From NCBI GenBank assembly GCA_038049695.1, contig CP142453.1, forward strand, positions 14,512,001 to 14,576,000: a DNA stretch of 64,000 nucleotides. The letters run 5' to 3'. Numbering within the stretch: position 1 is the first letter of the stretch; the number at the start of each line of letters is the position of its first letter. Below, one piece after another: positions 3,642 to 50,225 of this stretch. This DNA is from Cinnamomum chago. Taxonomy: Eukaryota > Streptophyta > Magnoliopsida > Laurales > Lauraceae. Both the position numbers and the translations under genes were made by a program. A model generated the notes under the pieces. The model was not told the origin of the DNA, ran no database searches, and saw only the letters and a list, made by a program, of their open reading frames with translations.

Positions 3642-4719
3642 CCTTCAATCTTCCAGCACCCATATGGCATGCTGTGGTGAAGTTCTATTCTAAGCCATCA
3701 ACCGTTGCAATTAAAGAATCAATGAAAAAGAAAGGAAGATTGAAGGAGAAAGAACAAGGTTCCACTTCCAAATGGGGGTAGCATATTCCAGATCTTGTGC
3801 AGTATACACTTAATTGGATGGAGAATGTGTCCAGTCTGAGCATGTCTTGACAATGACATTGACCTGAAAACTTAAATTCACTGTTTCAATTTAGTAAAAG
3901 TCAGAACCACAAACCTTATGACTTTAATGAGCACTGAGTACAGGTGGGAAGGATTGCCAATCAAGGTTTTTTTTTCTTTATATCTATATGAGTTACGAAC
4001 AAGAAAAGTGAAATTGTGGGCATTGTTTTTATTCTAGGCCATTCGGTTGGTGTATTCCAACTATAACTCACTTGAGCCAAGAATAAAAATGAAAAAAAAA
4101 GAAAAAAACTGTTGTGTCAATCATCTTGTGTGTTGAATTTAAAAGTGGCCTCCTAACGCGTCAATTCTTACCCGACTGTTCAAAATTCGAACCTAGTTCT
4201 CTCTCCCGATGTCTAGTTCTCTCACCAGAGTGCCGTGATCCTAGCCCTTTAAACTAGTCCCGTCCCAACCCAATTCAACCCTCCCCCTTTTTTTTCTTTT
4301 GGGGGGGGGGGGGACAAAAAACTTCATAGACTTATGAACAATTAGGCTGAAAGGGAGGGACTATAGCACAAATCTTATATTCTCCACCTGAAATTGGTCA
4401 ATTTTGACCGACACAGAGATCTAATCTCGACCGCTATCACTGTCAACGTGGCCAAGTCCCACAAGTCACACCACATCCATGACGTATACGCTCCAAATAC
4501 GATTCACATACCACGTATACATACACAAGTACAAGTACAAGTACAAATACCAATACAAATACAAGAGGCGGATACTCCCTCTCCCTGGGCTTCTGTCCTT
4601 TTCTCCATCCCTCGCTCCTTCCAAACAGCGAGAGCGAGAAATGATGAAAAGGTCAGACTCACCGTAGAAACCCAAGCTCCTTTTCCTCGGTTTTACAATT
4701 CCCCATCTCATCCAAACAG

Positions 4720-27400: not shown

Positions 27401-30400
27401 TCACATGTAACCTGCATAGATATGTTACATGAATTATTTGAAATAGGTAAGGTACGCTGAATTGACATGTATCGGCGAGGACTGAGGACTCTTGTCTTGG
27501 ATTCCTCATAATATGACTGGGTTCTTCTAGCATGTTCTTTGCTCTTCTCAAATTCATATGCATGTTACTTGATTGTCTGTAACAAAATTTTTACTTATAA
27601 GTTATCTTTTTTTTTTTTACTAGTGTTACTTCATATGATCTTTATTTTAAGGTACATGCTTGCTTAAATTAATTTAAATACGGTTCTGAATTCACTTATC
27701 TTAGTGTTTTCTGACGCTCGTACCAGTGTTGGATTCTTATACTAGTATTAGATTCAGACAACTTAGCCACATAAGCATCCTGCGGGATTTGAAGGATCAC
27801 GGTGTCATAAAAGTTTAAAACAAGCACCAAGTTAGGTTTGCGTGTTTTTTCCAGCTGTTGGTCTAGTCCTCTTATACCGAATGTTCTGTTGCACTTTTGT
27901 CTCTCTTGATTCGGAGCATGTTTGGTAACAACCGAGGAATCCATAGATCTGATGATTCTTCACTACCACGGGAAGAAGGATTCATCGCTGGGGATTTGTA
28001 AAGTCGAGGATTTCACATTGATATTGGTGTGTATCGATGCATATAGCTGAGAAAAATAGGGTTGGGGTGCAAATCCACTTAAGTGAGGATTTTCAAATCT
28101 TATGGGAGGTGGTCGGATCTGAAAATCCTAACAAATAAATATTTCGATTCGTCCAAATCGTCGGGAATTTACAATTGCCAAACATGGATTTACCACAACA
28201 TGAGGGAAATCGAAAAATCTTTTCCCTAAAGATTTGGTTGCCAAACATGACCTCAATAATATTTTGTTGTTACCTTTCCGGGGAAAAGGAAATTACATAC
28301 AAGCACGAGTCATGGAACAATGCTTTTTGAACCAACATGAACTATTAAAGCATCTTACCTGATCAGCTCTTGATGTTTCAAGCACCTGGTGCCTGGTTTT
28401 ACCAGGTGTTTCAGATTGTTGAGCTACATTGTCATCCAAAACTGATTTAGCTTTTCTAGTGAAAGCACTCCATAATCCATATTTGGATTCGTTTAGACTT
28501 TTCATTGATGTATATTCATGTGGCTTAGATTCCTACATTCACACATCAAACTGCATCAGAAAAGAATAAATACATAAAATACCAATGATTTTTATTGTTA
28601 ATCAACACTAGGCTGTCAAGAAATAGCATAATGGAAAGAAGAAGAAAAAGCATAAGAATTTTCCACATCATTCACCATGAATTGAAATAATTGAAATAAA
28701 ATTAAGATAAACAATCTCATGAACCTGTATTTGTGTTCACGTACTTGCTGCTTCCCACCAATATATTTCAAAACTCGGTGAGCTATAAGGAACCTATTTG
28801 ATACATGTAGGAGATTTCAATATATCGAGGTCACTTGAGGCCCTTTCACTAAATTAAAGACCTTTGGGATGACAGTGCTCTCCAAGAGTGATTACATTCT
28901 CCCTATTAGGTACTATGCTCACTTAAGATCACCATAAAAAGCTCTGCCATGTGTTGGTCCTCCAAGTGTGGATCATAATTCTGGATCAACAAGAGATTGC
29001 ACCAAACCGGTAGCCAGCTATAAAGATCTTCCAAATCTATACCATATATGATGACAGATCTACACTTTGTATAGGAACTTAAATGGATGAAGGAAAAAAA
29101 AATCAAAAGAAGAAAATAACATGCAGCTGAATTGCATATGCTAAGATAGATTTGTGGAGAAACAACAAAGGATAAAGTTAAGAAAGTGTCTATGGAGAAA
29201 ATACTTTGAGCAAAAAACTAAATAGATCAGAGAAATCTATGGGTGCTTCAGCTTTATATAAAGGAATATTATCTGAGATGGTACCCACATGTGCTTAGAA
29301 GACCTAGAGGCAAGAACAGCCCTTTTATAAAAAGTGAAGTGTTGCAAATAACCAAGAACGATGCATTTGACAAAGAGGGAAGCTAATGAAGTTGAGAGTG
29401 AAGAGATTAAAAGTGACATGTAAGGGTGTGGGTGACAGATAACATAACTCAAAATAGGGATCTTTGGAGAAGTAGAACTCACAAACCCTCATATATGGGA
29501 TAATGCTTTCATGATGATGACAACGGTGATGATTCCCACTGTAACTAGAAGACCTAAGAGGCTAGAACAGCCCTTTTATAAAGAGTGAAGTGTTGCAAGT
29601 AACCAAGTGCAATATATTTGAAGAAGATGGAAGCTAACAAAGTTGAGAGTGAGGAGGTTAAAAGTGAGATGTTATGATGTGGGTGACACAAAACACAACC
29701 CAAAATACGGATCTATGGAGAAGTAGAACTCACAAACCCTCATATATGAGATAAGGCTTTCATGATGATGACAACAACGATGACTTGCACAGTAAAGAAA
29801 GTGGATTTATGACAAGGGATAAGATCCTTTACAATTTAGTTCCTTATGCTATCGTTTGAGAATTCAGCTGGGAACAAACAATTGTATAATTAGTGATGTG
29901 ACATTTTCACCTCTGCATTCGTTAAGATTATTAAGGTCTCCCAACTGCATTGGGCTCTCTGTGGAAAGGAATTCAGTGGCATCTTATTTGAGGAGTTGCA
30001 TGATTTTTGTAACATGACTCTACATACGAGCTACATCTCTTGCACCCAGAGTCATGTTGCTCACTTCTTCTATTGTGTCTTTGTGTAGATAGCTTATCCC
30101 CCTGCTTGTTTCCATCATCTCAATTAATGAAGTTTAATTCATCATCATTGAAGCTTTATCCCATCTTTTCAGCAGGGTTCCTGCGTAACACTTTTCTACT
30201 CAGCTCATGTTCTTTGGCACTTGACAGTCTACATGTCCTAACAAGTTCATTTCAAGGCTTTATTGGTTTCTTACTTCTTCCTGAAGCTTGTAACACTTCA
30301 ATTCTTTGTATTGAGGTTGATTCTAATCTTCCAGCCTTTAATTCTGTGTCATGAGTTTGTCCCCAGCTCGAGTTTGCAATGTGTCAATTCCAAGCCCAGG

Positions 30401-31515
30401 TAAATGGGGAAGGTTGAGCTAGATTGATAGTAATAAAAAATAAAAAATCTTTCCACTAGTCGATAGTTAGATAGGAAACGCGGGTACCATCTGTTCAGAT
30501 TATAAGAGTGGATTCTTCAGACCAATCTCGGCTTGATAATGCTCCGATCACGACAATGATGAAGATGATAAGTACTGAATTACAAACAATGAACTCAATT
30601 TGAAGGAGTTAAGCAATGAACTAGGTAATTATGGAGTAAACACAGATAATAGAACTTTCAATGCCACTGACTAGACTTCAGGTTACTGGAACAGAGACCA
30701 AGTACAAGGAAAATATGATGAAATCTCAGAAAATTCTCATACTTTCAAAGTCAAATGAGACGGAATCATATTCACACACTTTACACTGATTTCCCAAGAA
30801 GCAAGATCTCAAACATGGAGCTTCCTCCTCGTACATAAATCAAATCCTTTCTGTCACTTTCATACTCCACCAAATCTTATATCAAAGGTCATTTCAAGCA
30901 CAAAAGGAAGCACCTTTTTACCTGTCCATAAAATAGACATCTGATTCAAAAGCTAAAAACCAGATACAACATTCAGACATGCCAATTGCCTAACCACTTG
31001 CAATTTCAAACCTCCAATTCACCAAAGAAAAAGAAAACCTCCGACTCTCTCCGAAAAAAAAAATCTTCACTCAAACATTTACCTCGATTCCTACATCATT
31101 TCCCAATCAGTTCCAACACAGAATCAGGTCAAAGAACACACAAAAGACGCAACTTTACAACAAAAATCCAAAATCCAACTCCAGATCATCATTTCCTTCC
31201 CAAAAACCCTAATTTTACACCAACAAGCAAGAAAAAACCACCGATCTGCATGTAGAAGAAGCGCGGAAACTAGAAAAGAGGACTGACCTGCTTAGATTGA
31301 GAGTATCTCTGCCGATTGGCCGATTCTCTGTAGGCGGATTCTCCATACGCGGTGGAGAGAGAGGAATCGCGATGAGCTGAGGAAGCTCGGATCGCTTGTG
31401 CGGCAAGAGAGTTGGGAGAAGCATCGTCCGGAGGAGGAGGAGGAGGAATTGGAGCGATGGAATCGTCGAAGAAGGGCGAAGATGTAGAAGTCGCGTGCTT
31501 TCTTCGATACGCCAT
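21434..31515 (-). CDS. Conserved plant coiled-coil protein of unknown function (6 exons)
   Basis: Exons on the minus strand are 31515-31288, 28532-28359, 25714-25589, 24818-24639, 23518-23354 and 21823-21434. Every intron is GT-AG and phase 0, so each exon is a whole number of codons (76, 58, 42, 60, 55, 129 residues; total 420). The N terminus is Ser-rich with a proline run (about residues 22-29), then [19 protein letters not shown]. Residues 93-165 include [13 protein letters not shown] and [20 protein letters not shown], continuing into [20 protein letters not shown] at the next exon. Residues about 240-330 are heptad-like and charged ([24 protein letters not shown]), predicting a coiled coil. 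The tail is Pro/Ser/Thr-rich. No enzyme motif, signal peptide or membrane segment is seen. I recognise this as a conserved plant family but cannot assign a function. The start is the first ATG after a TATA box. All-phase-0 introns would allow in-frame exon skipping. Confidence 0.9.
23086..23103. repeat. 18-base C homopolymer in the last intron of the coiled-coil gene
   Basis: An uninterrupted C run between exons 5 and 6 of the minus-strand gene. The rest of that intron (21824-23353) shows no supported feature. Confidence 0.9.
23741..23960. repeat. 108-bp tandem duplication in an intron of the coiled-coil gene
   Basis: Copies begin with TAGTTGTCCATCA at 23741 and 23849. They share GGGAAGTCAAATTAAGTTTA and AATAGAAGACAGTGAG with few differences. 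Each ends in GTGTTSGAAGGGCGCCTAG-like sequence. Confidence 0.85.
25087..25117. repeat. (CATG)n / (CA)n microsatellite
   Basis: ACATGCATGCATGCATGCAC followed by CACACACAT, in the intron between exons 3 and 4 of the coiled-coil gene. Confidence 0.85.
25378..25492 (+). repeat. Dispersed repeat with a CCTTGTCCCAA-type core, copy C
   Basis: This is the best-preserved copy. It reads TCATCATCAAAGCCTTGTCC, CCAACTATGTTGGG (a short hairpin), ATTGGCTACACGAATTATG and TTCACCATTCCGATCTATCT. The copy lies inside the intron between exons 3 and 4 of the coiled-coil gene, in opposite orientation to the gene. Confidence 0.65.
26196..26222 (-). repeat. 27-base T run, possible minus-strand poly(A) tail
   Basis: A long uninterrupted T tract in intron 2 of the coiled-coil gene. 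It could be the poly(A) tail of a minus-strand retroelement. I could not identify a target-site duplication or a SINE body next to it, so only the tract is claimed. Confidence 0.5.
26765..27200. repeat. Diverged ~214-bp tandem duplication with CTACTGCTGC triplet-rich tails
   Basis: Copy 1 has TGGATTTGGGTCCCCAGTTA near 26774 and copy 2 has TGGATATGGGTTCACAGTTA near 26988. Both continue through a GGTCTGGCCCGGGTCCAG-like stretch and end in CTG/CTA triplet-rich sequence (26900-26950 and 27135-27250). It is non-coding on both strands and lies in intron 2 of the coiled-coil gene. Confidence 0.65.
27913..28254. mobile_element. MITE-like element with CATGTTTGG(T/C)AAC termini
   Basis: The left end contains GGAGCATGTTTGGTAACAAC. 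The right end, reverse-complemented, contains GAGGTCATGTTTGGCAACCA. The roughly 340 bases between have no coding capacity and contain further internal inverted words (GGATTTTCAAATC / GATCTGAAAATCC). The termini are short and the target-site duplication is unclear. Confidence 0.5.
29296..29797. repeat. 250-bp tandem duplication in intron 1 of the coiled-coil gene
   Basis: Copies begin TAGAAGACCTA at 29296 and 29546. They share AACAGCCCTTTTATAAARAG, GTGAAGTGTTGCAA, GAGAAGTAGAACTCACAAAC and CATGATGATGACAAC in order. Divergence is modest, so the duplication is fairly young. The remainder of intron 1 (28533-31287) shows no other gene or element I can support. Confidence 0.85.
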
Positions 31516-31611
31516 TTCGATCTCGAGCTTCTTCAGTTGAAGAAATCGAACGAGAGAGAGAGAGATGGCGATGATCTTAAGCGAGATCGATCGACAGAGA
31601 CAGGGCTTGCG

Positions 31612-31621
31612 CTTTTTTATA
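31612..31621 (-). promoter_or_regulatory. TATA box of the coiled-coil gene
   Basis: On the - strand TATAAAAAAG lies 97-106 bases upstream of the ATG at 31515. It is followed by a leader with a CT-rich (GAGA on the + strand, 31551-31562) stretch. Position and context fit a plant core promoter. The exact transcription start is inferred. Confidence 0.6.
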
Positions 31622-31689
31622 GAGACAGGGCGGGCGCCAGCAATGGAGTTGATTGTGCTGTGAGACGATGAGTGTGGGTCCCGCTTTTT

Positions 31690-32151
31690 TGTGATCTTGA
31701 TGGACGGATGTGATCATCCGGATTAAAGAGTGGTGGGGTATACACGATCAACCTGTCCGTTTTGGAGATGGAATGTATCCATTTCGATTTTATCAGATTT
31801 CGGACAGGAATGGTTTAAGTAGAGAGTAGAAATGACTTTCAAGGAGTAGGGGGACTTAACAAGAATTTTTAGGTGGGTTTGGTTACGACCCGTCGGGTCT
31901 GGCAAAGCCCGAAAACACAGGACTTTTAAATAAAAATTGAGCCGGTTTAGACAATTATTTAAAAGCTTGAACAAAATGAAACTGGAAGTGGGCAGAGAAT
32001 GCCGAGCCCGTTCGGCCCGGCCTGGCCCGCCCTCAATATAATTTTACTAATTTCAATCGAAGTTAAATAGTGACCATCTCTATTCTTAAATTCAATATTA
32101 TGATTATAGATTTACATAATCTATTTCTAGTGGACTATTGATTCTATTGGG
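31690..32151. repeat. Repeat-rich spacer left of the 4.55-kb array
   Basis: It holds GCCCGTTCGGCCCGGCCTGG-type words at about 31990-32030. A diverged 36-bp block at 32047-32085 (TTTCAATCGAAGTTAAATAG) reappears inside the array unit at about 32251. A 24-bp unit, TAGTGGACTATTGATTCTAT+TGGG, at 32128-32151 is repeated with one change at the first base of the array (32152-32175). The 24-bp repeat marks the array's left boundary. Confidence 0.7.
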
Positions 32152-32441
32152 TAGTGGACTGTTGATTCTATTGGGAATAGTCTTTCTTCTCTTTTCTTTT
32201 TTAAGTTTGTTCAAAGGAGAGTAATATTATTTTTATTCATACAAGTGATATTTCAATTGAAGTTAAATAGTGTCCATCTTTGTCATCAACTTCAATCAAC
32301 ACATTTATTTCACTCCCAAAACTCACTAAACTTGCACTACATAAAAGAAGAGAGGAGGCACCATAAAAGAGCAAAAAAAGAGCTCAAACAACCAAAGAAA
32401 CCTTGTAGTTGCATTCCCATGCAATCGGGCAAACTCGAGAC

Positions 32442-32493
<52 letters not shown>

Positions 32494-35400
32494 ACCGTTG
32501 TTTTCAAATGAGATCAATTGAGAAATCAGCCTCCCGATTTTGACAGTAAATGGACGTCCAAAACTGCTGGTCCGTTGATACCTGAGCCAACACAGCCTGA
32601 CCCATTTAGGATGTAAATGCTTTTGAATGTTTATTAATTGAGATCCAAAACTGCAGGACTCTTCCAAATGCCTCTCTATGTTACTTCGTAATTTGTATGG
32701 TGTACATGCAAAAAAAAAAAAAAAAAACCCCAAACCAGCGTACCACACACCCTTGCTATCATTTCATATATAACCCTCTTTCATTAGATTTCTTTATTTC
32801 AAATTAAATTTCATAACAGTTAAGTAACATTCATGCTATCATTCAATTGCTTTTCTTGTAATTGTTTATTTCGTATCTTCTTCATCTACCATGGGCATTT
32901 CCAAAGGTCAGGTGGTATTTATATATTTATTTATATACATTTCTCCGTCTTCTTACTCTTTCATTCTCCTCTTCTATTACACATCTGCATTATATAAAAC
33001 TTGTACGTGTTTTTTTTTTATATATTTTTTTAATCGATCATGCAGGTCTCTGTCATCTTGTCCAGCATCCCCATGTGAGCTATCGTCAAAGAAATGTAGT
33101 TCTAGGAATTACCTGGGAACAATCCGTCATTGATGATCAAAGTCCCAATTCAAGTGGTTGGTGAGAACTAGCTGCTGAATGATTCATTTTTTTTCATATT
33201 ATTATATCCATTCACAGGTGATGGTAATACTCATTTACAAAAAATGTTTGATGATCACAATCCTTGAATGAAGATCTTACAACTAAATTCCTATAGCCAT
33301 TTATTTTGAGGCCCCTCGTGTGATGATTTAGCTATAAAATGGAAATTGATAATATACAATGTGTGGTATTGTGTCATTTGTATTCTGGCTCTAGATCATG
33401 TCTACTTTACACGCGATATCTTGGCTCAAGAACCACCATCCATCACATAAACTTTGACCGTCAAACTGATGACCAAAGTTTTTCTTATTTCCACAGCAAG
33501 TGCTCTACAATCCCCATGAACTTTCGCCAAGTCTCACTACAAGATTTACGGGACCTTGGTTTTAGTTGTGAGGGTCAAGTTGACGTTGTATAGAATCTCA
33601 TTTTTTGTTTTGTTTCTGTACTACGTTGTTTTTCTTAACTAATCCCTTTTTATTTTGAAAATTTGATAATGATATGTAGAAATAATGTCATGGTTTTGGG
33701 CATCCTCTATTGCATTTACATTATATATACTCCATGGATTTTGGTTTTAGAATTTTGCATGTTGTGCATGTGATATAGAAATTAAGATTACTGTCGGTTT
33801 TTGTAGAAATTTGAATCAGCTACCAATTTTTCATTTAGTGTACTGTTTGTTAAATTAATTGAATTTTCTTTCATTTTTTTTATTTGGACTATTTTAAAAA
33901 GACAAGGTATGGTTCAATCTACAAATGCTTTACTATTCTAGCTTTTCTATAATTCTAATGTTATTTTGTGTGCATGAGTATTTTTTTTTTTTTTTTTAAG
34001 ATTTTTATCTGTGTATGCCCTACAATTCTCTATTAAGGATCTTTTAATGAGTTTTTGACTTTTTCTTAATAGACCGCGAGTAAAAAAATGGATGATAATG
34101 AAAATGTTGAGACATAAAATGGATTGTTCATACATTATAAACTAAGGTCTGCATTTGAATTAACAACATTATATGTTGGTACAATGACTATATTTTGTAT
34201 GATTTATATCTAATTAGATTATACTTTTGATCTGTTGATTTCTCCTAATTTATAGTACATTAGGTTAGAGACCCATTATATTTCATGGGTTTTTAGTACA
34301 ATATACTTTAAATTATATTTTTAGCAGTTCATATCGCTTTCTTATATCATACTCTAATCCTCATATGCTTGAAGTACTTCAGTAAATATAAAATGATTAC
34401 CTTTTCCTCTACTAATTAAGATATTTAAAATTTATTAACTACTGTCTACTATATCTTGTTTGGTTAGTGCAGACCCCGGCTTGTTACAAGTTAGGATTTA
34501 ACGAGTGGTATGATATGATGGATATATATAGTGTAGAGAACTATATATAGATTATACAAGCCAAAGCATTTATTAATGTTATTGTGGTTTTTTTCTTTTT
34601 CTTTTAATATGTTCTTGGATATGGATGATGGCCTTTTCTTTTCTTTTCAATCAATGATGAATGAGCTTCAGAAAGGTTGACTGCAAATAGATTTATTTTA
34701 CAATATTTTTTTAATCTACATTGCTCCTAATGCACTGGCAATTGCGAAAAAACCATTCATGTATTTATTAAGTTACAATTTTATTTCTATCTTCTTTTTT
34801 TCAAAGGAAAATGATTTTTTACTATCTTCGATTGTGTTATATCATGTGTAGACTACTGGAAGTTAGTTTTTAAGTAATATTTTAAAATAATTTTTTTTCA
34901 GAAACCAAATGAAACAACTATGAGAAATATGAGATCCACTAAATTAGATCAAGGCAAGAACTGAAAAATATATAAAAGTGTGATGGGTTGTCTCGAATGA
35001 TTCTTTGGTTTCAAAAGAATGTTGACATGAAATTAAACAAATTGAAGTGCTTTCATTTTGAAATTTATTAATTATATATTTGTTTTGCTAATATAAGCCT
35101 TGATTTTTATTGCAAATTTTGCCGTCTCAATATAATTCAAAACAATTTTTTTTTATAAATTTAGATTTTTTTTACTAATCTCTAATATTATAAATTATAT
35201 TAGCACGAGCATATTTTGCTAGTACAAATGGTTCCGACAACTCCCTCTAAGTGGGCTATGTTCACATACTAATCAAACCCCATTGTTTAAGTGTTTATTG
35301 CATATAACTAATAATGCATAAGATTCTGCTAATCACATTATCAGATATATTTCAAAGTTTTTGTCTCGTGAGATGTTGTTACGGGATATGTTCTACGTTT

Positions 35401-36707
35401 TTTTATTTATGACAATCATACTATATAGATAAAAGTTTTTGTTAGCGTGCATGCCAAGAGTGCATGTTTCTAACTCCGCCATATTGTTTGTTGCATTGCA
35501 TTGCCGGTCTCAAGCTAAAAAAAAGGAGGGTTTAAAGTTCACTTCACAACAGGTGTCCGATGACAATATATAAATAATTAGATAATGTTTAGTTTGTGTT
35601 CAAGATCGTAGGAAGCTCAGGACCTGCCTTGGCCCATCCCGGGCCTGCACATGACGAGATTTAACATAGGCCTGTTCAATTTAGGGTCGGGATTGGACAA
35701 CCGCGGCCTTACGGGCCTGTCCAATTTTCGAGACAGGATTAGACAACTCAAGTCCAAGCCCGGCCCATTGACAGACCTAATTACGAGATTTTGTGGATTT
35801 TCCAAGTGTGAAAGTTCATAGTTCTGTGATTTTTTTTTTTTTTTAAGCTTTTGGACCATGTGGGACTTTTTTGTGCAGGGTGAGGATTTCATGCTCAATG
35901 GATTTTTATTTTTTTATTCATGGAAAGAGGAATTTTGCATTCCTTCTCTTATTGAAGAAAATTGAAATTTTCACTCTCGTAAAAAATTGGATTAATTTGT
36001 TTCTTTTTCTTTTTAAGAAAAATGTGCTACACCAAGTAACAGAATAGGAGGACGTGGGGGAAGTCAAAATAAGTTTTTCTTTCCATCATAGAATCCTCTC
36101 TTTATATAAAGGCATCCCTAGAGTGCTAAAATTATTTAGTCCAGAAATGCTATTTCAAATGAATATTTTTTTAGGATGCTACTGATCTAAGAGGGGTTTA
36201 AGGAACTTCATAGGCATCAAACATACCCTAAATTGATTATAAAGGGCATGTTTGGTTTGCAGTATTTATGATGGGGAGGTTTCAAGTGCATCTATCTCTC
36301 ACCATAGGGTGAGGGACACTTCCATAATTGGGCATTTTCAAGTACAAAAGCTACATAGGGTGAGGTACACATCCTTGTCTTCATGTGCAAAAATGGGAAG
36401 TGACTCTCACCCTATGGTGAGGGATAGGGATAGATGCACTTGAAACTTTTCCATTTATGATAGGGGATTTGGTTCGCTGTATTTATGATAGGAATCCCCT
36501 TTGTGGGAATTCCTTATATGGGTGCATGTCTTGTCTCAATTGAATTTTGAATTCTCTATTTGGATTTTGGGGGGTGGGCTTGGTATAGCAACGCTGCATA
36601 CTATCTTCCATCATCCAATAACAGAATGCAACGTCAATAAGAAGGATGAGCTCAAGATCGGCATTTTTAATGCATCTCCTCAAAACATGGGTACTGAGGA
36701 TTTTTGG
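32152..36707. repeat. Tandem array, copy 1 of a 4.55-kb unit
   Basis: The 4556-bp unit starts with TAGTGGACTGTTGATTCTAT. In order it contains an (AT)23 run (32444-32489), a poly(A) run near 32711, a long AT-rich stretch without a recognisable gene, a GCCCGGCCC-rich block (35610-35780), a T run near 35829, a hairpin MITE (36279-36446) and about 130 bases of the left end of the foldback element found complete at 47897. It ends CATGGGTACTGA plus GGATTTTTGG. Copy 1 is the most diverged: it keeps 10 bases (near 33107-33117) that copies 2-4 lack. No frame above about 140 codons exists, and the longest are translated AT runs. Confidence 0.95.
36279..36446. mobile_element. Short hairpin (MITE-like) element inside each array unit
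   Basis: GTTTCAAGTGCATCTATC and CTCACCATAGGGTGAGGG on the left are mirrored on the right by CTATGGTGAGGG and GATAGATGCACTTGAAAC. The result is a long imperfect hairpin of 168 bp. A direct repeat, TTTGGTTTGCAGTATTTATG / TTTGGTTCGCTGTATTTATG, flanks it at about 36251 and 36469. Equivalent copies lie at 40834-41001, 45377-45544 and about 47600-47772; the last has an 11-base internal duplication (ACTTTTCAAGT). Confidence 0.6.
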
Positions 36708-36997
36708 TAGTGGACTGTTGATTCTATTGGGAATAGTCTTTCTTCTCTTTTCTTTTTTAAGTTTGTTCAAAGGAGAGTAATATTATTTTTATTCATACAA
36801 GTGATATTTCAATTGAAGTTAAATAGTGTCAATCTTTGTCATCAACTTCAATCAACACATCTATTTCACTCCCAAAACTCACTAAACTTGCACTACATAA
36901 AAGAAGAGAGGAGGCACCATAAAAGAGCAAAAAAAGAGCTCAAACAACCAAAGAAACCTTGTAGTTGCATTCCCATGCAATCGGGCAAACTCGAGAC

Positions 36998-37057
<60 letters not shown>

Positions 37058-40000
37058 ACCGTTGTTTTCAAATGAGATCAATTGAGAAATCAGCCTCCCG
37101 ATTTTGACAGTAAATGGACGTCCAAAACTGCTGGTCCGTTGATACCTGAGCCAACACAGCCTGACCCATTTAGGATGTAAATGCTTTTGAATGTTTATTA
37201 ATTGAGATCCAAAACTGCAGGACTCTTCCAAATGCCTCTCTATGTTACTTCGTAATTTGTATGGTGTACATGCAAAAAAAAAAAAAAAAAAACCCCAAAC
37301 CAGCGTACCACACACCCTTGCTATCATTTCATATATAACCCTCTTTCATTAGATTTCTTTATTTCAAATTAAATTTCATAACAGTTAAGTAACATTCATG
37401 CTATCATTCAATTGCTTTTCTTGTAATTGTTTATTTCGTATCTTCTTCATCTACCATGGGCATTTCCAAAGGTCAGGTGGTATTTATATATTTATTTATA
37501 TACATTTCTCCGTCTTCTTACTCTTTCATTCTCCTCTTCTATTACACATCTGCATTATATAAAACTTGTACGTGTTTTTTTTTTATATATTTTTTTAATC
37601 GATCATGCAGGTCTCTGTCATCTTGTCCAGCATCCCCATGTGAGCTATCGTCAAAGAAATGTAGTTCTAGGAACAATCCGTCATTGATGATCAAAGTCCC
37701 AATTCAAGTGGTTGGTGAGAACTAGCTGCTGAATGATTCATTTTTTTCATATTATTATATCCATTCACAGGTGATGGTAATACTCATTTACAAAAAATGT
37801 TTGATGATCACAATCCTTGAATGAAGATCTTACAAACTAAATTCCTATAGCCATTTATTTTGAGGCCCCTCGTGTGATGATTTAGCTATAAAATGGAAAT
37901 TGATAATACGCAATGTGTGGTATTGTGTCATTTGTATTCTGGTTCTAGATTATGTCTACTTCACATGCGATATCTTTGCTCAAGAACCACCATCCATCAC
38001 ATAAACTTTGACCGTCAAACTGATGACCAAAGTTTTTCTTATTTCCACAACAATTAGTGCTCTACAATCCCCATGAACTTTCGCCAAGTCTCACTACAAG
38101 ATCTACGGGACCTTGGTTTTAGTTGTGAGGGTCAAGTTGACGTTGTATAGAATCTCATTTTTGGTTTTGTTTCAGTACTACGTTGTTTTTCTTAACTAAT
38201 CCCTTTTTATTTTGAAAAATTGATAATGATATGTAGAAATAATGTCATGGTTTTGGGCACCCTCTATTACATTTACATTATATATACTCCATGGATTTTG
38301 GTTTTAGAATTTTGCATGTTGTGCGTGTGATATAGAAATTAAGATTACTGTCGGTTTTTGTAGAAATTTGAATCAGCTACCAATTTTTCATTTAGTGTAC
38401 TGTTTGTTAAATTAATTGAATTTTCTTTCATTTTTTTTTATTTGGACTATTTTAAAAAGACAAGGTATGGTTCAATCTACAAATGCTTTAATTATTCTTT
38501 TCTATAATTCTAATGTTATTTTGTGTGCATGAGTATTTTTATTTTTTTTTTAGATTTTTATCTGTGTATGCCCTACAATTCTCTATTAAGGATCTTTTAA
38601 TGAGTTTTTGACTTTTTCTTAATAGACCGCGAGTAAAAAAATGGATGATAATGAAAATGTTGAGACATAAAATGGATTGTTCATACATTATAAACTAAGG
38701 TCTGCATTTGAATTAACAACATTATATGTTGGTACAATGACTATATTTTGTATGATTTATATCTAATTAGATTATACTTTTGATCTGTTGATTTCTCCTA
38801 ATATATAGTACATTAGGTTAGAGACCCATTATATTTCATGGGTTTTTAGTACAATATACTTTAAATTATATTTTTAGCAGTTCATATCGCTTTCTTATAT
38901 CATACTCTAATCCTCATATGCTTGAAGTACTTCAGTAAATATAAAATGATTACCTTTTCCTCTACTAATTAAGATATTTAAAATTTATTAACTACTGTCT
39001 ACTATATCTTGTTTGGTTAGTGCAGACCCCGGCTTGTTACAAGTTAGGATTTAACGAGTGGTATGATACGATGGATATATATAGTGTAGAGAACTATATA
39101 TAGATTATACAAGCCAAAGCATTTATTAATGTTATTGTGGTTTTTTTCTTTTTCTTTTAATATGTTCTTGGATATGGATGATGGCCTTTTCTTTTCTTTT
39201 CAATCAATGATGAATGAGCTTCAGAAAGGTTGACTGCAAATAGATTTATTTTACAATATTTTTTTAATCTACATTGCTCCTAATGCACTGGCAATTGCGA
39301 AAAAACCATTCATGTATTTATTAAGTTACAATTTTATTTCTATCTTCTTTTTTTCAAAGGAAAATGATTTTTTACTATCTTCGATTGTGTTATATCATGT
39401 GTAGACTACTGGAAGTTAGTTTTTAAGTAATATTTTAAAATAATTTTTTTTCAGAAACCAAATGAAACAACTATGAGAAATATGAGATCCACTAAATTAG
39501 ATCAAGGCAAGAACTGAAAAATATATAAAAGTGTGATGGGTTGTCTCGAATGATTCTTTGGTTTCAAAAGAATGTTGACATGAAATTAAACAAATTGAAG
39601 TGCTTTCATTTTGAAATTTATTAATTATATATTTGTTTTGCTAATATAAGCCTTGATTTTTATTGCAAATTTTGCCGTCTCAATATAATTCAAAACAATT
39701 TTTTTTTATAAATTTAGATTTTTTTTACTAATCTCTAATATTATAAATTATATTAGCACGAGCATATTTTGCTAGTACAAATGGTTCCGACAACTCCCTC
39801 TAAGTGGGCTATGTTCACATACTAATCAAACCCCATTGTTTAAGTGTTTATTGCATATAACTAATAATGCATAAGATTCTGCTAATCACATTATCAGATA
39901 TATTTCAAAGTTTTTGTCTCGTGAGATGTTGTTACGGGATATGTTCTACGTTTTTTTATTTATGACAATCATACTATATAGATAAAAGTTTTTGTTAGCG

Positions 40001-41262
40001 TGCATGCCAAGAGTGCATGTTTCTAACTCCGCCATATTGTTTGTTGCATTGCATTGCCGGTCTCAAGCTAAAAAAAAGGAGGGTTTAAAGTTCACTTCAC
40101 AACAGGTGTCCGATGACAATATATAAATAATTAGATAATGTTTAGTTTGTGTTCAAGATCGTAGGAAGCTCAGGACCTGCCTTGGCCCATCCCGGGCCTG
40201 CACATGACGAGATTTAACATAGGCCTGTTCAATTTAGGGTCGGGATTGGACAACCGCGGCCTTACGGGCCTGTCCAATTTTCGAGACAGGATTAGACAAC
40301 TCAAGTCCAAGCCCGGCCCATTGACAGACCTAATTACGAGATTTTGTGGATTTTCCAAGTGTGAAAGTTCATAGTTCTGTGGTTTTTTTTTTTTTTTTTA
40401 AGCTTTTGGACCATGTGGGACTTTTTTGTGCAGGGTGAGGATTTCATGCTCAATGGATTTTTATTTTTTTATTCATGGAAAGAGGAATTTTGCATTCCTT
40501 CTCTTATTGAAGAAAATTGAAATTTTCACTCTCGTAAAAAATTGGATTAATTTGTTTCTTTTTCTTTTTAAGAAAAATGTGCTACACCAAGTAACAGAAT
40601 AGGAGGACGTGGGGGAAGTCAAAATAAGTTTTTCTTTCCATCATAGAATCCTCTCTTTATATAAAGGCATCCCTAGAGTGCTAAAATTATTTAGTCCAGA
40701 AATGCTATTTCAAATGAATATTTTTTTAGGATGCTACTGATCTAAGAGGGGTTTAAGGAACTTCATAGGCATCAAACATACCCTAAATTGATTATAAAGG
40801 GCATGTTTGGTTTGCAGTATTTATGATGGGGAGGTTTCAAGTGCATCTATCCCTCACCATAGGGTGAGGGACACTTCCATAATTGGGCATTTTCAAGTAC
40901 AAAAGCTACATAGGGTGAGGTACACATCCTTGTCTTCATGTGCAAAAATGGGAAGTGACTCTCACCCTATGGTGAGGGATAGGGATAGATGCACTTGAAA
41001 CTTTTCCATTTATGATAGGGGATTTGGTTCGCTGTATTTATGATAGGAATCCCCTTTGTGGGAATTCCTTATATGGGTGCATGTCTTGTCTCAATTGAAT
41101 TTTGAATTCTCTATTTGGATTTTGGGGGGTGGGCTTGGTATAGCAACGCTGCATACTATCTTCCATCATCCAATAACAGAATGCAACGTCAATAAGAAGG
41201 ATGAGCTCAAGATCGGCATTTTTAATGCATCTCCTCAAAACATGGGTACTGAGGATTTTTGG
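36708..41262. repeat. Tandem array, copy 2 of the 4.55-kb unit
   Basis: This 4555-bp copy is in direct orientation. Its (AT)27 run at 37000-37053 is the longest of the four. By eye it is identical or nearly so to copy 3 outside simple repeats. It differs from copy 1 at scattered sites, for example GTCAATC for GTCCATC near 36828 and a 10-base deletion near 37672. Confidence 0.95.
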
Positions 41263-41552
41263 TAGTGGACTGTTGATTCTATTGGGAATAGTCTTTCTTC
41301 TCTTTTCTTTTTTAAGTTTGTTCAAAGGAGAGTAATATTATTTTTATTCATACAAGTGATATTTCAATTGAAGTTAAATAGTGTCAATCTTTGTCATCAA
41401 CTTCAATCAACACATCTATTTCACTCCCAAAACTCACTAAACTTGCACTACATAAAAGAAGAGAGGAGGCACCATAAAAGAGCAAAAAAAGAGCTCAAAC
41501 AACCAAAGAAACCTTGTAGTTGCATTCCCATGCAATCGGGCAAACTCGAGAC

Positions 41553-41600
<48 letters not shown>

Positions 41601-44600
41601 ACCGTTGTTTTCAAATGAGATCAATTGAGAAATCAGCCTCCCGATTTTGACAGTAAATGGACGTCCAAAACTGCTGGTCCGTTGATACCTGAGCCAACAC
41701 AGCCTGACCCATTTAGGATGTAAATGCTTTTGAATGTTTATTAATTGAGATCCAAAACTGCAGGACTCTTCCAAATGCCTCTCTATGTTACTTCGTAATT
41801 TGTATGGTGTACATGCAAAAAAAAAAAAAAAAAAACCCCAAACCAGCGTACCACACACCCTTGCTATCATTTCATATATAACCCTCTTTCATTAGATTTC
41901 TTTATTTCAAATTAAATTTCATAACAGTTAAGTAACATTCATGCTATCATTCAATTGCTTTTCTTGTAATTGTTTATTTCGTATCTTCTTCATCTACCAT
42001 GGGCATTTCCAAAGGTCAGGTGGTATTTATATATTTATTTATATACATTTCTCCGTCTTCTTACTCTTTCATTCTCCTCTTCTATTACACATCTGCATTA
42101 TATAAAACTTGTACGTGTTTTTTTTTTATATATTTTTTTAATCGATCATGCAGGTCTCTGTCATCTTGTCCAGCATCCCCATGTGAGCTATCGTCAAAGA
42201 AATGTAGTTCTAGGAACAATCCGTCATTGATGATCAAAGTCCCAATTCAAGTGGTTGGTGAGAACTAGCTGCTGAATGATTCATTTTTTTCATATTATTA
42301 TATCCATTCACAGGTGATGGTAATACTCATTTACAAAAAATGTTTGATGATCACAATCCTTGAATGAAGATCTTACAAACTAAATTCCTATAGCCATTTA
42401 TTTTGAGGCCCCTCGTGTGATGATTTAGCTATAAAATGGAAATTGATAATACGCAATGTGTGGTATTGTGTCATTTGTATTCTGGTTCTAGATTATGTCT
42501 ACTTCACATGCGATATCTTTGCTCAAGAACCACCATCCATCACATAAACTTTGACCGTCAAACTGATGACCAAAGTTTTTCTTATTTCCACAACAATTAG
42601 TGCTCTACAATCCCCATGAACTTTCGCCAAGTCTCACTACAAGATCTACGGGACCTTGGTTTTAGTTGTGAGGGTCAAGTTGACGTTGTATAGAATCTCA
42701 TTTTTGGTTTTGTTTCAGTACTACGTTGTTTTTCTTAACTAATCCCTTTTTATTTTGAAAAATTGATAATGATATGTAGAAATAATGTCATGGTTTTGGG
42801 CACCCTCTATTACATTTACATTATATATACTCCATGGATTTTGGTTTTAGAATTTTGCATGTTGTGCGTGTGATATAGAAATTAAGATTACTGTCGGTTT
42901 TTGTAGAAATTTGAATCAGCTACCAATTTTTCATTTAGTGTACTGTTTGTTAAATTAATTGAATTTTCTTTCATTTTTTTTTATTTGGACTATTTTAAAA
43001 AGACAAGGTATGGTTCAATCTACAAATGCTTTAATTATTCTTTTCTATAATTCTAATGTTATTTTGTGTGCATGAGTATTTTTATTTTTTTTTTAGATTT
43101 TTATCTGTGTATGCCCTACAATTCTCTATTAAGGATCTTTTAATGAGTTTTTGACTTTTTCTTAATAGACCGCGAGTAAAAAAATGGATGATAATGAAAA
43201 TGTTGAGACATAAAATGGATTGTTCATACATTATAAACTAAGGTCTGCATTTGAATTAACAACATTATATGTTGGTACAATGACTATATTTTGTATGATT
43301 TATATCTAATTAGATTATACTTTTGATCTGTTGATTTCTCCTAATATATAGTACATTAGGTTAGAGACCCATTATATTTCATGGGTTTTTAGTACAATAT
43401 ACTTTAAATTATATTTTTAGCAGTTCATATCGCTTTCTTATATCATACTCTAATCCTCATATGCTTGAAGTACTTCAGTAAATATAAAATGATTACCTTT
43501 TCCTCTACTAATTAAGATATTTAAAATTTATTAACTACTGTCTACTATATCTTGTTTGGTTAGTGCAGACCCCGGCTTGTTACAAGTTAGGATTTAACGA
43601 GTGGTATGATACGATGGATATATATAGTGTAGAGAACTATATATAGATTATACAAGCCAAAGCATTTATTAATGTTATTGTGGTTTTTTTCTTTTTCTTT
43701 TAATATGTTCTTGGATATGGATGATGGCCTTTTCTTTTCTTTTCAATCAATGATGAATGAGCTTCAGAAAGGTTGACTGCAAATAGATTTATTTTACAAT
43801 ATTTTTTTAATCTACATTGCTCCTAATGCACTGGCAATTGCGAAAAAACCATTCATGTATTTATTAAGTTACAATTTTATTTCTATCTTCTTTTTTTCAA
43901 AGGAAAATGATTTTTTACTATCTTCGATTGTGTTATATCATGTGTAGACTACTGGAAGTTAGTTTTTAAGTAATATTTTAAAATAATTTTTTTTCAGAAA
44001 CCAAATGAAACAACTATGAGAAATATGAGATCCACTAAATTAGATCAAGGCAAGAACTGAAAAATATATAAAAGTGTGATGGGTTGTCTCGAATGATTCT
44101 TTGGTTTCAAAAGAATGTTGACATGAAATTAAACAAATTGAAGTGCTTTCATTTTGAAATTTATTAATTATATATTTGTTTTGCTAATATAAGCCTTGAT
44201 TTTTATTGCAAATTTTGCCGTCTCAATATAATTCAAAACAATTTTTTTTTATAAATTTAGATTTTTTTTACTAATCTCTAATATTATAAATTATATTAGC
44301 ACGAGCATATTTTGCTAGTACAAATGGTTCCGACAACTCCCTCTAAGTGGGCTATGTTCACATACTAATCAAACCCCATTGTTTAAGTGTTTATTGCATA
44401 TAACTAATAATGCATAAGATTCTGCTAATCACATTATCAGATATATTTCAAAGTTTTTGTCTCGTGAGATGTTGTTACGGGATATGTTCTACGTTTTTTT
44501 ATTTATGACAATCATACTATATAGATAAAAGTTTTTGTTAGCGTGCATGCCAAGAGTGCATGTTTCTAACTCCGCCATATTGTTTGTTGCATTGCATTGC

Positions 44601-45805
44601 CGGTCTCAAGCTAAAAAAAAGGAGGGTTTAAAGTTCACTTCACAACAGGTGTCCGATGACAATATATAAATAATTAGATAATGTTTAGTTTGTGTTCAAG
44701 ATCGTAGGAAGCTCAGGACCTGCCTTGGCCCATCCCGGGCCTGCACATGACGAGATTTAACATAGGCCTGTTCAATTTAGGGTCGGGATTGGACAACCGC
44801 GGCCTTACGGGCCTGTCCAATTTTCGAGACAGGATTAGACAACTCAAGTCCAAGCCCGGCCCATTGACAGACCTAATTACGAGATTTTGTGGATTTTCCA
44901 AGTGTGAAAGTTCATAGTTCTGTGGTTTTTTTTTTTTTTTTTAAGCTTTTGGACCATGTGGGACTTTTTTGTGCAGGGTGAGGATTTCATGCTCAATGGA
45001 TTTTTATTTTTTTATTCATGGAAAGAGGAATTTTGCATTCCTTCTCTTATTGAAGAAAATTGAAATTTTCACTCTCGTAAAAAATTGGATTAATTTGTTT
45101 CTTTTTCTTTTTAAGAAAAATGTGCTACACCAAGTAACAGAATAGGAGGACGTGGGGGAAGTCAAAATAAGTTTTTCTTTCCATCATAGAATCCTCTCTT
45201 TATATAAAGGCATCCCTAGAGTGCTAAAATTATTTAGTCCAGAAATGCTATTTCAAATGAATATTTTTTTAGGATGCTACTGATCTAAGAGGGGTTTAAG
45301 GAACTTCATAGGCATCAAACATACCCTAAATTGATTATAAAGGGCATGTTTGGTTTGCAGTATTTATGATGGGGAGGTTTCAAGTGCATCTATCCCTCAC
45401 CATAGGGTGAGGGACACTTCCATAATTGGGCATTTTCAAGTACAAAAGCTACATAGGGTGAGGTACACATCCTTGTCTTCATGTGCAAAAATGGGAAGTG
45501 ACTCTCACCCTATGGTGAGGGATAGGGATAGATGCACTTGAAACTTTTCCATTTATGATAGGGGATTTGGTTCGCTGTATTTATGATAGGAATCCCCTTT
45601 GTGGGAATTCCTTATATGGGTGCATGTCTTGTCTCAATTGAATTTTGAATTCTCTATTTGGATTTTGGGGGGTGGGCTTGGTATAGCAACGCTGCATACT
45701 ATCTTCCATCATCCAATAACAGAATGCAACGTCAATAAGAAGGATGAGCTCAAGATCGGCATTTTTAATGCATCTCCTCAAAACATGGGTACTGAGGATT
45801 TTTGG
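41263..45805. repeat. Tandem array, copy 3 of the 4.55-kb unit
   Basis: This copy is 4543 bp. The 12-base length difference from copy 2 equals the difference in its AT run ((AT)21, 41555-41596, against (AT)27). All other landmarks keep their spacing to within a base or so. Copies 2 and 3 therefore come from the most recent duplication. Confidence 0.95.
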
Positions 45806-46095
45806 TAGTGGACTGTTGATTCTATTGGGAATAGTCTTTCTTCTCTTTTCTTTTTTAAGTTTGTTCAAAGGAGAGTAATATTATTTTTATTCATACAAGT
45901 GATATTTCAATTGAAGTTAAATAGTGTCAATCTTTGTCATCAACTTCAATCAACACATCTATTTCACTCCCAAAACTCACTAAACTTGCACTACATAAAA
46001 GAAGAGAGGAGGCACCATAAAAGAGCAAAAAAAGAGCTCAAACAACCAAAGAAACCTTGTAGTTGCATTCCCATGCAATCGGGCAAACTCGAGAC

Positions 46096-46139
<44 letters not shown>

Positions 46140-48023
46140 ACCGTTGTTTTCAAATGAGATCAATTGAGAAATCAGCCTCCCGATTTTGACAGTAAATGGA
46201 CGTCCAAAACTGCTGGTCCGTTGATACCTGAGCCAACACAGCCTGACCCATTTAGGATGTAAATGCTTTTGAATGTTTATTAATTGAGATCCAAAACTGC
46301 AGGACTCTTCCAAATGCCTCTCTATGTTACTTCGTAATTTGTATGGTGTACATGCAAAAAAAAAAAAAAAAAAACCCCAAACCAGCGTACCACACACCCT
46401 TGCTATCATTTCATATATAACCCTCTTTCATTAGATTTCTTTATTTCAAATTAAATTTCATAACAGTTAAGTAACATTCATGCTATCATTCAATTGCTTT
46501 TCTTGTAATTGTTTATTTCGTATCTTCTTCATCTACCATGGGCATTTCCAAAGGTCAGGTGGTATTTATATATTTATTTATATACATTTCTCCGTCTTCT
46601 TACTCTTTCATTCTCCTCTTCTATTACACATCTGCATTATATAAAACTTGTACGTGTTTTTTTTTTATATATTTTTTTAATCGATCATGCAGGTCTCTGT
46701 CATCTTGTCCAGCATCCCCATGTGAGCTATCGTCAAAGAAATGTAGTTCTAGGAACAATCCGTCATTGATGATCAAAGTCCCAATTCAAGTGGTTGGTGA
46801 GAACTAGCTGCTGAATGATTCATTTTTTTTCATATTATTATATCCATTCACAGGTGATGGTAATACTCATTTACAAAAAATGTTTGATGATCACAATCCT
46901 TGAATGAAGATCTTACAAACTAAATTCCTATAGCCATTTATTTTGAGGCCCCTCGTGTGATGATTTAGCTATAAAATGGAAATTGATAATATACAATGTG
47001 TGGTATTGTGTCATTTGTATTCTGGGTGTAGATCATGTCTACTTTACATGAGATATCTTTGCTCAAGAACCACCATCCAAGCCCGGCCCATTGAAAGACC
47101 TAATTACGAGATTTTGTGGATTTTCCAAGTGTGAAAGTTCATAGTTCTGTGATTTTTTTTTTTTTTAAGCTTTTGGACCATATGGGACTTTTTTGTGCAG
47201 GGTGAGGATTTCATGCTCAATGGATTTTTATTTTTTTATTCATGGAAAGAGGAATTTTGCATTCCTTCTCTTATTGAAGAAAATTGAAAATTTCACTCTC
47301 GTAAAAAATTGGATTAATTTGTTTCTTTTTCTTTTTAAGAAAAATGTGCTACACCAAGTAACAGAATAGGAGGACGTGGGGGAAGTCAAAATAAGTTTTT
47401 CTTTCCATCATAGAATCCTCTCTTTATATAAAGGCATCCCTAGAGTGCTAAAATTATTTAGTCCAGAAATGCTATTTCAAATGAATATTTTTTTAGGATG
47501 CTACTGATCTAAGAGGGGTTTAAGGAACTTCATAGGCATCAAACATACCCTAAATTGATTATAAAGGGCATGTTTGGTTTGCAGTATTTATGATGGGGAG
47601 GTTTCAAGTGCATCTATCTCTCACCATAGGGTGAGGGACACTTCCATAATTGTGCATTTTCAAGTACAAAAGCTACTTTTCAAGTACATAGGGTGAGGTA
47701 CACATCCTTGTCTTCATGTGCAAAAATGGGAAGTGTCTCTCACCCTATGATGAGGGATAGATGCACTTGAAACTTTCTCATTTATGATAGGGGATTTGAT
47801 TCGCTGTATTTATGATAGGAATCCCCTTTGTGGGAATTCCTTATATGGGTGCATGTCTTGTCTCAATTGAATTTTGAATTCTCTATTTGGATTTTTGGGG
47901 GTGGGCTGGTATAGCAACGCTGCATACTATCTTCCATCATCCAATAACAGAATGCAACGTCAATAAGAAGGATGAGCTCAAGATCGGCATTTTTAATGCA
48001 TCTCCTCAAAACATGGGTACTGA
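45806..48023. repeat. Tandem array, copy 4, with a 2.3-kb internal deletion
   Basis: It begins like copies 2 and 3, with (AT)19 at 46098-46135. At 47079 it jumps from unit sequence equivalent to 42539 to that equivalent to 44853, so 2313 bases are missing. TCCA is shared at the joint. From about 46990 onward single-base variants match copy 1 rather than copies 2 and 3. At 48023 it runs into the rest of the foldback element instead of the GGATTTTTGG junction that starts another copy. Confidence 0.93.
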
Positions 48024-50225
48024 AATAAATTTGATTATTTCCAGAAACACCCTTGCTAATTCCTGAACTAAATGGTTTCCAATACTACCCTTTACCAACT
48101 CTCGACTCCTGAGATGAAAAGGTGGGTCTTATTTATCATAATTCCAAAATATATGAGGTCAAATTATAATTTTTAAAGGTGGATTCATTTTATAATTCTT
48201 AATCGTGGGAGCTATATCCATATTAAAAAAAGTGGTTTGCCTTTGAATATTTGTAAACATGAGCCACATGTAGTTCCGAAATGTGGGTCTCCATACTATC
48301 ATTTCTAAAGATGGACTTCATATATAACATAATTCAAGGGGGGTCTCATATTCTGTTTCTTAACGCTGGGTCCCATGTAATTTATAAATATCAATAATAG
48401 GCCACATCTTAACGTCTAAACTACTGATATCATCATTCTATCATATATGACAAGGAAAAAGTAATTAACTTGTGAAATAACAAAAGAAATATGCTGCACA
48501 TGCATTTTAAATGAGTAATGAAGCCATTAAATAACAAAATATATCTTATCCATTTGATAAGAGTATTAAACGGTTAAATGATGAAAAAATTATACATTTT
48601 AAGAGAGATCAAGCAATTAAACAACAAAAGAAATATGGTATGGGATCAAACTTTATTTGTGTTAATTTATGTATTCAATAGGTGCAGGGTAAGGCCTCAT
48701 GTATTTTTCATCCAAATGGTTTAAATAAAGAATGTATAGCCTATGTTGTACTCAGGCCTAGACTTGAATCAAACTAACTTATATCAATGAAAATATTGAT
48801 TGGAATACCCCAACCATAAGATTGAGCATTATTTTTTCTAAATAATAATAAAAAAGAAAAATGAAAGGAGTGAATTTTCATTTTTAATATGTGATTACGC
48901 TATGCAACGATTTCTTGCATGATGTGTGAACTAAAAAAATCTCCACTATATATGTGGAATAAGTCATTCAACTATTGATTTAAAGGATTTTATTTGATGA
49001 GCAATAAAGAAAATAAAAAATTTAATGGAAAAGGATAATAGCAGTCATCCAATCAAAAGGCGCGATCAACTAAAAAAATGACTTTTAGTAGTAGAAAAAA
49101 CTCGTTTTTAGCGGTAGTTTTTTTCCATCACTAAAAGTCACTTTTAGCAGTAGAAGTTTCTTTCCACCGCTAAAAGTGTTGTTTTTACCTCTAAATTTTC
49201 TTTTCTTTATAGCTTATCAAACAAAATCCGCTAAATCTTCTACCAAAAAAAAAAAAAAACTGCTAAATCAATAGTCAAATAACTATACCACACATATGCA
49301 ATGGAGGTGCTTTACTTCACACATCGCAAAAAAAAATGACTGTACATTGGAATCATGTGTTAAAATAAAAATTGATTCCTTTTATTTTTCTCATTTTAAT
49401 GTTATGTTAAAAAAAAATACTCATGGCTGATATTTCATTCATATAAGTAAGTTTTCCTATTAAATACATGAGCCCAAATAATGCTTGAGCCCATGCCACA
49501 TTGCTTGGTTATTGTGCTCCAATGTGTAAATCTTTTTATCATTTAATTGCTTAATATTTGTTTAAAATGGGTAACATCTTTTGCTATTTAATTTTTTAAT
49601 TATTCATTTAAAATGTGTTTCATAGTTTTTATTTAATAGGCTAATCATTTTCTTCTTATCATATATAATAGAATGGTGATTTTGAGTAAATTAAATGTTA
49701 CAATGTCTCATTATTCGTAAATTGGACCTACGTATATGAAATAGAACATGGAGTCCACATTTAAGAATTATTTCATATTTTGCATTACAAGAAAAAAGGT
49801 CCACCTTTAGAAATAATAATATGAGATGCACCTTTGGAAGTTATAACATGAAACCATCTTTAGGAATTACATATGGCCCACATTTTACAAAAATTCACAT
49901 GCAGGCCACTTTTTTTAATGTGGATATAAGAATTATAAAATGAATCCACCTTTAGAAATTATAATTTGGCCTCATATTTTTGGAATTATAATAAATGGGT
50001 CCCACCTTTTCATCTCATAAGTTGAGAGTTGGTAACCCGTAGTTTTGAAAACCATTTTGTTAAAGAATTAGCAAGGATAGTTCAGAAAATAATTAGATTT
50101 ATTTAAGTACCCATGTTTTGAAGAGAAGCATTAAAAGTGCCGTTCTTAAATTCATCCTTCCTATTGACGTTGCATTCTCTTATTGGATGGAGGAAGACGC
50201 TGCATACTAACCCCAAGCCCACCCC
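47897..50225. mobile_element. Long-inverted-repeat (foldback / MULE-like) DNA element
   Basis: The two halves are reverse complements over most of their length. The left arm begins GGGGGTGGGCTGG (47897) and the right arm, reverse-complemented, begins GGGGTGGGCTTGG (50225). Shared blocks follow in order: GAATGCAACGTCAATA, CAAAACATGGGTACT, GAGATGAAAAGGTGGG, AAAGGTGGATTCATTTTATA, TTAAAAAAAGTGG and ACTATTGATTTA. Arms of about 1.1 kb leave a central part of about 150 bases (49040-49190) with repeated CTTTTAGCGGTAG / CACTTTTAGCAGTAG words. There is no coding frame, so the element is non-autonomous. Superfamily is uncertain; long arms suggest a Mutator-like foldback. No clean target-site duplication was found. 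Confidence 0.8.
49230..49269. repeat. Tiny poly(A) insertion in the right arm of the foldback element
   Basis: GCTAAATC occurs at 49230-49237 and 49262-49269, flanking TTCTACC plus about 15 A and CT. The left arm of the same element (near 48975) has the uninterrupted equivalent site, so this is an insertion rather than a loss. Confidence 0.6.

Follow-up and report, generated by a model that had tools for sequence, protein, structure and literature searches.

A four-copy tandem array of nested transposon debris in Cinnamomum chago, probably enlarged by unequal exchange

We analyzed a 64,000-nucleotide stretch of Cinnamomum chago DNA (the window; contig 3, positions 14512001 to 14576000, from an assembly of 1.061 Gb in 14 contigs) that holds a tandem array of a 4.55-kb unit. 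Very probably, this array is a neutral, recombination-prone tandem segmental duplication built from the debris of nested transposons, and no function is required to explain it. Judged by its relatives elsewhere in the genome, the unit is mostly dispersed transposon sequence: part of an element X, presumably hAT-like; a Helitron-like relic nested in X; a miniature inverted-repeat transposable element (MITE) that we take to be Mutator-type; and 126 bp from the start of another element, Y, presumably Mutator-like. The array appears to be a small, legible record of tandem-array birth, in which an end-joining accident was followed by unequal exchange within nested transposons, and the dispersed relatives of those transposons let some of the array changes be polarized. 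The mechanism is textbook and implies no function; this is a well-preserved but ordinary case.

Copies and junctions of the array

Comparison of the window with itself resolved the array into four head-to-tail copies on the plus strand, three full and one internally deleted: C1 (32152-36707), C2 (36708-41262), C3 (41263-45805), and C4 (45806-48023). The repeat starts given in an initial annotation of this DNA (32152, 36708, 41263, and 45806) and the periods of 4556, 4555, and 4543 bp proved exact. That annotation had counted 3.5 copies. However, C4 (2218 bp) keeps both ends of the unit and carries an internal deletion (2313 bp relative to C3 and 2314 bp relative to C1, with TCCA microhomology at the joint, 47076-47079), so there is no half unit. 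As had been claimed, C2 and C3 are the same outside an AT run, with 4543 matches, no mismatches, and 12 gap columns, all of which lie in the run. The Helitron-like insert has this run at its left end, with 23 units in C1 (32444-32489), 27 in C2 (at 37000), 21 in C3 (at 41555), and 19 in C4 (at 46098). C1 and C2 show 26 mismatches over 4539 aligned bases (0.57% apart overall), and the right side of C4 is 1.1 to 1.3% divergent.

The three internal junctions are identical over the 71 bases compared, each reading GGTACTGA, then GGATTTTTGG, then TAGTGG. The middle segment is a filler of 8 to 10 bp, its last GG also matching the left flank, and it lies at 36698-36707 between C1 and C2 and again at 41253-41262 and 45796-45805. 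The left breakpoint (32151/32152) falls within X and the right breakpoint (48023/48024) in the left arm of Y. X extends into the flank to the left of C1, and Y, of which C1 to C3 hold just the first 126 bp, continues complete from C4; these are the ends expected of the original locus. When a full 300-base junction was used as a query against the 1.06-Gb genome, it matched at the three array junctions only (55 matches listed, 40 of 60 candidates scored).

We saw no homology by which the breakpoints could have been joined, because the matches between the unit and the rest of the window are limited to the inverted arm of Y, a T-rich 25-mer, and 47-bp and 24-bp subrepeats of X. On this comparison, recombination at the breakpoints between similar repeats was rejected. 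The sole occurrence of GGATTTTTGG in the window outside the junctions, on either strand, is at 47889-47898, 125 bp to the left of the right breakpoint, where it is a possible template for the filler. Because C1 to C3 carry GGATTTTGG at the equivalent position, the template would be the C4 form. In maize P1-wr, fillers as small as 8 bp are described as copied from near the break, in the available portion of the report (PMC2686159). Together, the junction and the nearby filler copy point to end joining with templated filler.

Growth of the array

The alignment columns of C1, C2, and C4 were used to read the mosaic structure of the copies. In columns 0 to 1213, C2 differed from C4 at none of 1185 sites and from C1 at 2 of 1191; in columns 3615 to 4573, the differences were 2 of 945 between C1 and C2, 12 of 937 between C2 and C4, and 10 of 937 between C1 and C4. 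Both C2 and C3 resemble C4 on the left and C1 on the right, the pattern predicted for unequal crossing-over, and a polarized deletion agrees. Eleven bases of C1 (33105-33115) are missing from C2, C3, and C4 and present in the dispersed relatives L009, L010, L011, and L014. Because C1 and all four relatives that cover the site (of six) keep them, their loss is derived and common to the left halves of C2 to C4. The array has two marks of a tandem duplication grown by unequal crossing-over, head-to-tail copies with one shared junction and hybrid inner copies, the block at 33355-33998 aside.

That block is one of two observations that weigh against this account. It holds 20 of the 26 C1/C2 substitutions (none of 5000 permutations was as clustered), and C1 and C2 are 2.3 to 8% apart across its 650 bp. 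Its first 84 bp (33355-33438 in C1, 37909-37992 in C2, and 46992-47075 in C4) show 6 to 8% mutual divergence, compared with 0 to 0.2% to the left and 2.3% (C1/C2) to the right. Within these 84 bp, C1/C2, C1/C4, and C2/C4 differ at 7, 5, and 7 sites, even though C2 equals C4 over 1185 bases leftward. The divergence of the block exceeds what two copies with a simple history would show, and a third haplotype or conversion likely contributed. Ectopic conversion from one of the fetched relatives was rejected as its source; the C2 alleles match no relative consistently, with three of the six covering the block just partly. The second observation concerns the filler match at 47889, which could be due to chance, at a probability of about 0.006 for a match within 401 bp in a first-order Markov simulation.

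The array had been called young, which suits its last step and not its first. Assuming 7e-9 changes per site and year, the 95% upper bound on the C2/C3 split is about 47,000 years, rising to 220,000 years at 1.5e-9, and a very recent last duplication is supported. The founding duplication is older, because C1 and C2, the diverged block, and the right side of C4 show the divergence given above.

We propose that a Helitron-like element entered X, which would have lain beside a spacer with the Mutator-type MITE and beside Y with its long inverted repeats. Break repair would then have joined a point within Y to a point within X, the short filler between them probably being copied from nearby, so that two copies, A and B, lay head to tail. 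From the single shared junction, the breakpoints with no homology seen, and the second filler copy, we infer end joining with template switching. A and B would subsequently have diverged, with B losing 2.3 kb through the microhomology deletion. A misaligned crossover of B with A would have produced A, B/A, and B, in which the middle hybrid is B-like on the left and A-like on the right, and a second, very recent unequal exchange would have doubled the hybrid into C2 and C3. The mosaic was read directly from the alignment; crossing-over instead of conversion, and this order of steps, would be the likely way in which it arose. Copy number would naturally be expected to differ between individuals, and the junction and the AT-run lengths are markers for copy-number typing.

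In literature listings on satellite birth, we found nothing closer than the systems compared here. As the accessible part of its report describes it, P1-wr (PMC2686159) likewise consists of near-perfect head-to-tail kilobase repeats, with growth by unequal crossover, conversion tracts, a chimeric copy, and break-proximal filler. However, P1-wr has 11 copies of a 12-kb unit with a gene inside, whereas here there are four copies of a 4.5-kb unit in which no gene was found.

The initial annotation had also raised assembly expansion, in which case fewer copies would really exist at the locus (C1-C2-C4, for example) and C3 would be an artifact of the assembly graph or of haplotypes. We consider this unlikely. 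In its favor, not one substitution separates C2 from C3 over 4543 bp, and their sole difference is in a dinucleotide run that sequencing error could alter. However, the changes that separate C1, C2, and C4 are ordered and in part polarized, the AT run is of a different length in each of the four copies, and there is no N in the window or in two adjoining stretches (one of 10,000 bases, reaching about 3 kb inside the window start, and one of 9,000 bases), which hold no further units either. These points support C1, C2, and C4 but not C3, which alone could be an artifact. Expansion therefore fails for C1, C2, and C4 and retains some force for C2 versus C3.

Transposon content of the unit

The unit had been described as noncoding; no gene was found in it, but its makeup of dispersed transposons had been overlooked. 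A 300-base unit probe (10 of 10 candidates scored) found 10 places in the genome, comprising three array copies at 98 to 100% identity and seven dispersed places at 74 to 95%. Six of these seven relatives were fetched, and none matches C1 or its left flank beyond about 32470-35225. A genome search with the whole unit listed 94 matches (39 of 2597 candidates scored), the array copies themselves not among them. The silence of that search on any place is no proof, and uniqueness rests on the 300-base probe and junction searches. Among the whole-unit matches listed, unit positions up to 295 run straight into 3069 onward at many places. About 0.6 kb of the unit, the spacers from X to the MITE and from the MITE to Y, falls outside the elements assigned.

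Twelve loci (L024 to L035) of the 20 cut out by the junction search were examined, and 11 carry X. An empty site, CCCA followed by TACAAATG, is present in 10 of these 11, where the sequence reads CCCATACAAATG without the insert; the eleventh (L034) matches on the left side only. Because X loci show the empty site, the insert can be placed at 32445-35222 (2.78 kb, plus strand), between host A and host T, inside dispersed X. Its 3' end is CTAG with the host T behind. According to the section available of a study of plant Helitrons (PMC2267711), these elements have TC and CTAG ends, a hairpin, and flanking A and T. The C1 insert starts in the AT run and has no 5' TC, and the GC-rich hairpin 10 to 15 bp before the 3' end is incomplete, one arm being lost. 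The relatives L009, L011, and L014 have ATC and begin ATC[A/C]ATT...TATATGAAAGCCG (3 of 3 printed), while L009, L010, and L011 end in TTTGCTAG followed by T. The hairpin near the 3' end is kept in L009 but not in L010 or at the outer end of L011. With no 5' TC and only one arm of the hairpin left, the insert was named a Helitron-like nonautonomous relic and not an intact Helitron. It resembles the plant nonautonomous Helitrons of that source (PMC2267711, as excerpted) in its 3' CTAG, in the host A and T on either side, and in its empty sites; unlike them, it is without the 5' TC and full hairpin, and it is a passenger in the tandem unit, not what defines it. Beside the contig 8 relative, L009 also carries a second, better kept Helitron-like 3' end at about 9849-9902 on the minus strand (GCCCGTGCTAAGCACAGGGC, then TTTTGCTAG followed by T).

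Element X is nonautonomous and occupies 31894-32444 and 35223-35786 on the plus strand, split by the Helitron-like insert, with its left end in the window not exactly placed. A hAT element would be marked by short terminal inverted repeats and an 8-bp target duplication; X ends in TAGG...CCTA, and the 8-bp flanks match at 7 of 8 positions in L024 and L035, the two of six scanned loci where both ends were found. At the left breakpoint lies a 24-bp tandem doublet (32128-32175, plus strand), and the repeat unit starts at its second half. All five aligned X relatives have a single 24-bp unit at that site, as judged by eye with varying gap placement. Seven of the X matches listed by the whole-unit search fall in about 0.6 Mb of contig 2 (19.06-19.63 Mb), a possible local cluster.

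The MITE is a 180-bp hairpin at 36273-36452 on the plus strand, present also at 40828-41007, 45371-45550, and 47595-47779, with ATTTATGAT on both sides. Terminal inverted repeats with a 9-bp target duplication would identify such an element, and a near-perfect foldback flanked by ATTTATGAT is found in all four array copies, which are not independent of one another. A third ATTTATGAT, 28 bp to the right of the MITE, weakens the target-duplication reading. Folding of two copies, those in C1 and C4, gave -101.7 and -110.2 kcal/mol (z of -12.7 and -14.9). Among the whole-unit matches listed, one dispersed relative on contig 6 (93%) spans only this stretch and ends within 6 bp of both borders.

Element Y (47898-50225, plus strand) is a putative nonautonomous Mutator-like element with long terminal inverted repeats. 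Its arms of about 750 bp are 71% identical, and inverted matches recur in all four fetched relatives, three of which align nearly full length as one piece and one (L037) as two. The 9-bp flanks agree at 9 of 9 positions in L038, at 8 of 9 in L039 if the element starts at GGGGC, and at about 7 of 9 with a one-base offset in L037; no 9-bp flank duplication was seen in L040 or in the window copy. These flanks and the inverted arms fit a Mutator-like element. Like the elements with long terminal inverted repeats in the available text of PMC3310237, Y has inverted repeats of several hundred base pairs, and a perfect 9-bp target duplication flanks one of its four relatives; unlike them, Y adjoins an array in which just its first 126 bp are repeated.

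Coding potential and possible function

The statement that the unit has no recognizable gene was borne out so far as tested. Searches of the whole window gave no Rfam match at the gathering score and no tRNA (with bacterial settings). Nothing in Pfam scored above the curated cutoff for 9 of the 19 unit stop-to-stop frames of at least 50 amino acids or for one spliced candidate; the sole unit values under 1, AAA_lid_1 (E = 0.0042) and ETRAMP (E = 0.069), fell short of their cutoffs. The longest C1 frame, 145 amino acids, was reached in 7 of 300 first-order Markov simulations, and with the AT and poly-A/T runs removed, the longest frame, 120 amino acids, was reached in 37 of 300. A three-exon gene in C1 (32891-33593, 75 amino acids by conceptual splicing) was rejected; it has no Pfam match and is broken by stops or frame changes in L009, L010, L012, and L014. 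In L011, its second part is open and its third lies in two frames, the open exon being a weak point in the candidate's favor. An RNA gene at the strong hairpin was likewise rejected, with no Rfam match and the hairpin read as the MITE.

We considered whether the copies might act on a candidate minus-strand gene with an apparent start near 31515 (open frame 31270-31713), in the manner of the noncoding repeats upstream of maize b1. The array starts about 640 bp upstream of the candidate start codon, no gene was found inside it, and the MITE copies, with the folding scores given above, could form hairpin RNA. However, the neighboring gene model is an unproven candidate with no Pfam match at E of 0.1, and the sequence repeated at b1 is unique in maize, according to the consulted part of PMC3798267, whereas the array units are transposon pieces. 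We regard a regulatory array as highly improbable. An extension of it, in which a copy-number-variable noncoding cluster born of transposon debris would, like b1, tune or silence the gene on the left through small RNAs made from the MITE hairpins and Mutator-arm pieces, seems just as improbable. The b1 hepta-repeat, as presented in the same partial source (PMC3798267), is similarly made of noncoding tandem copies arranged head to tail, at a single locus that lies upstream of a gene. Its unit of 853 bp, however, is present in seven copies about 100 kb upstream and has a proven role in paramutation, whereas the array described here is largely transposon derived.

Mobile unit, satellite, and minor observations

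That the 4.55-kb unit is itself mobile and multiplied on its own, as a Helitron concatemer, a long terminal repeat-type tandem, or a reinserted circle, is scarcely credible. The unit does contain a Helitron-like insert, and Helitrons can insert side by side, as stated in the portion at hand of PMC2267711. Against this, the ends of the unit (32152 and 36707) differ from those of the insert (32445 and 35222), the two breakpoints fall inside elements other than the insert, the outer ends of the array show no visible direct repeat, and the junction candidates scored (40 of 60) gave the full junction at no further locus. The suggestion of a nascent satellite finds no support, as satellites form long arrays with many copies or loci and there are four copies here, with the full junction at one locus, three times, among the same candidates, and with separate transposons as the dispersed relatives.

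Tandem segmental duplication of transposon debris is the reading that we prefer for the array. Two other short tandem duplications occur in the window. One, near the array, has a 251-bp unit (29296-29775, 1.9 copies, 87% matches) and no match to the array unit, and the other has a 108-bp unit (23739-23961, 2.1 copies, 93% matches). In the assembly, the six contigs seen (contigs 1, 2, 3, 8, 9, and 11) all have sizes that are multiples of 2500 bases, perhaps a trait of scaffolding or padding.

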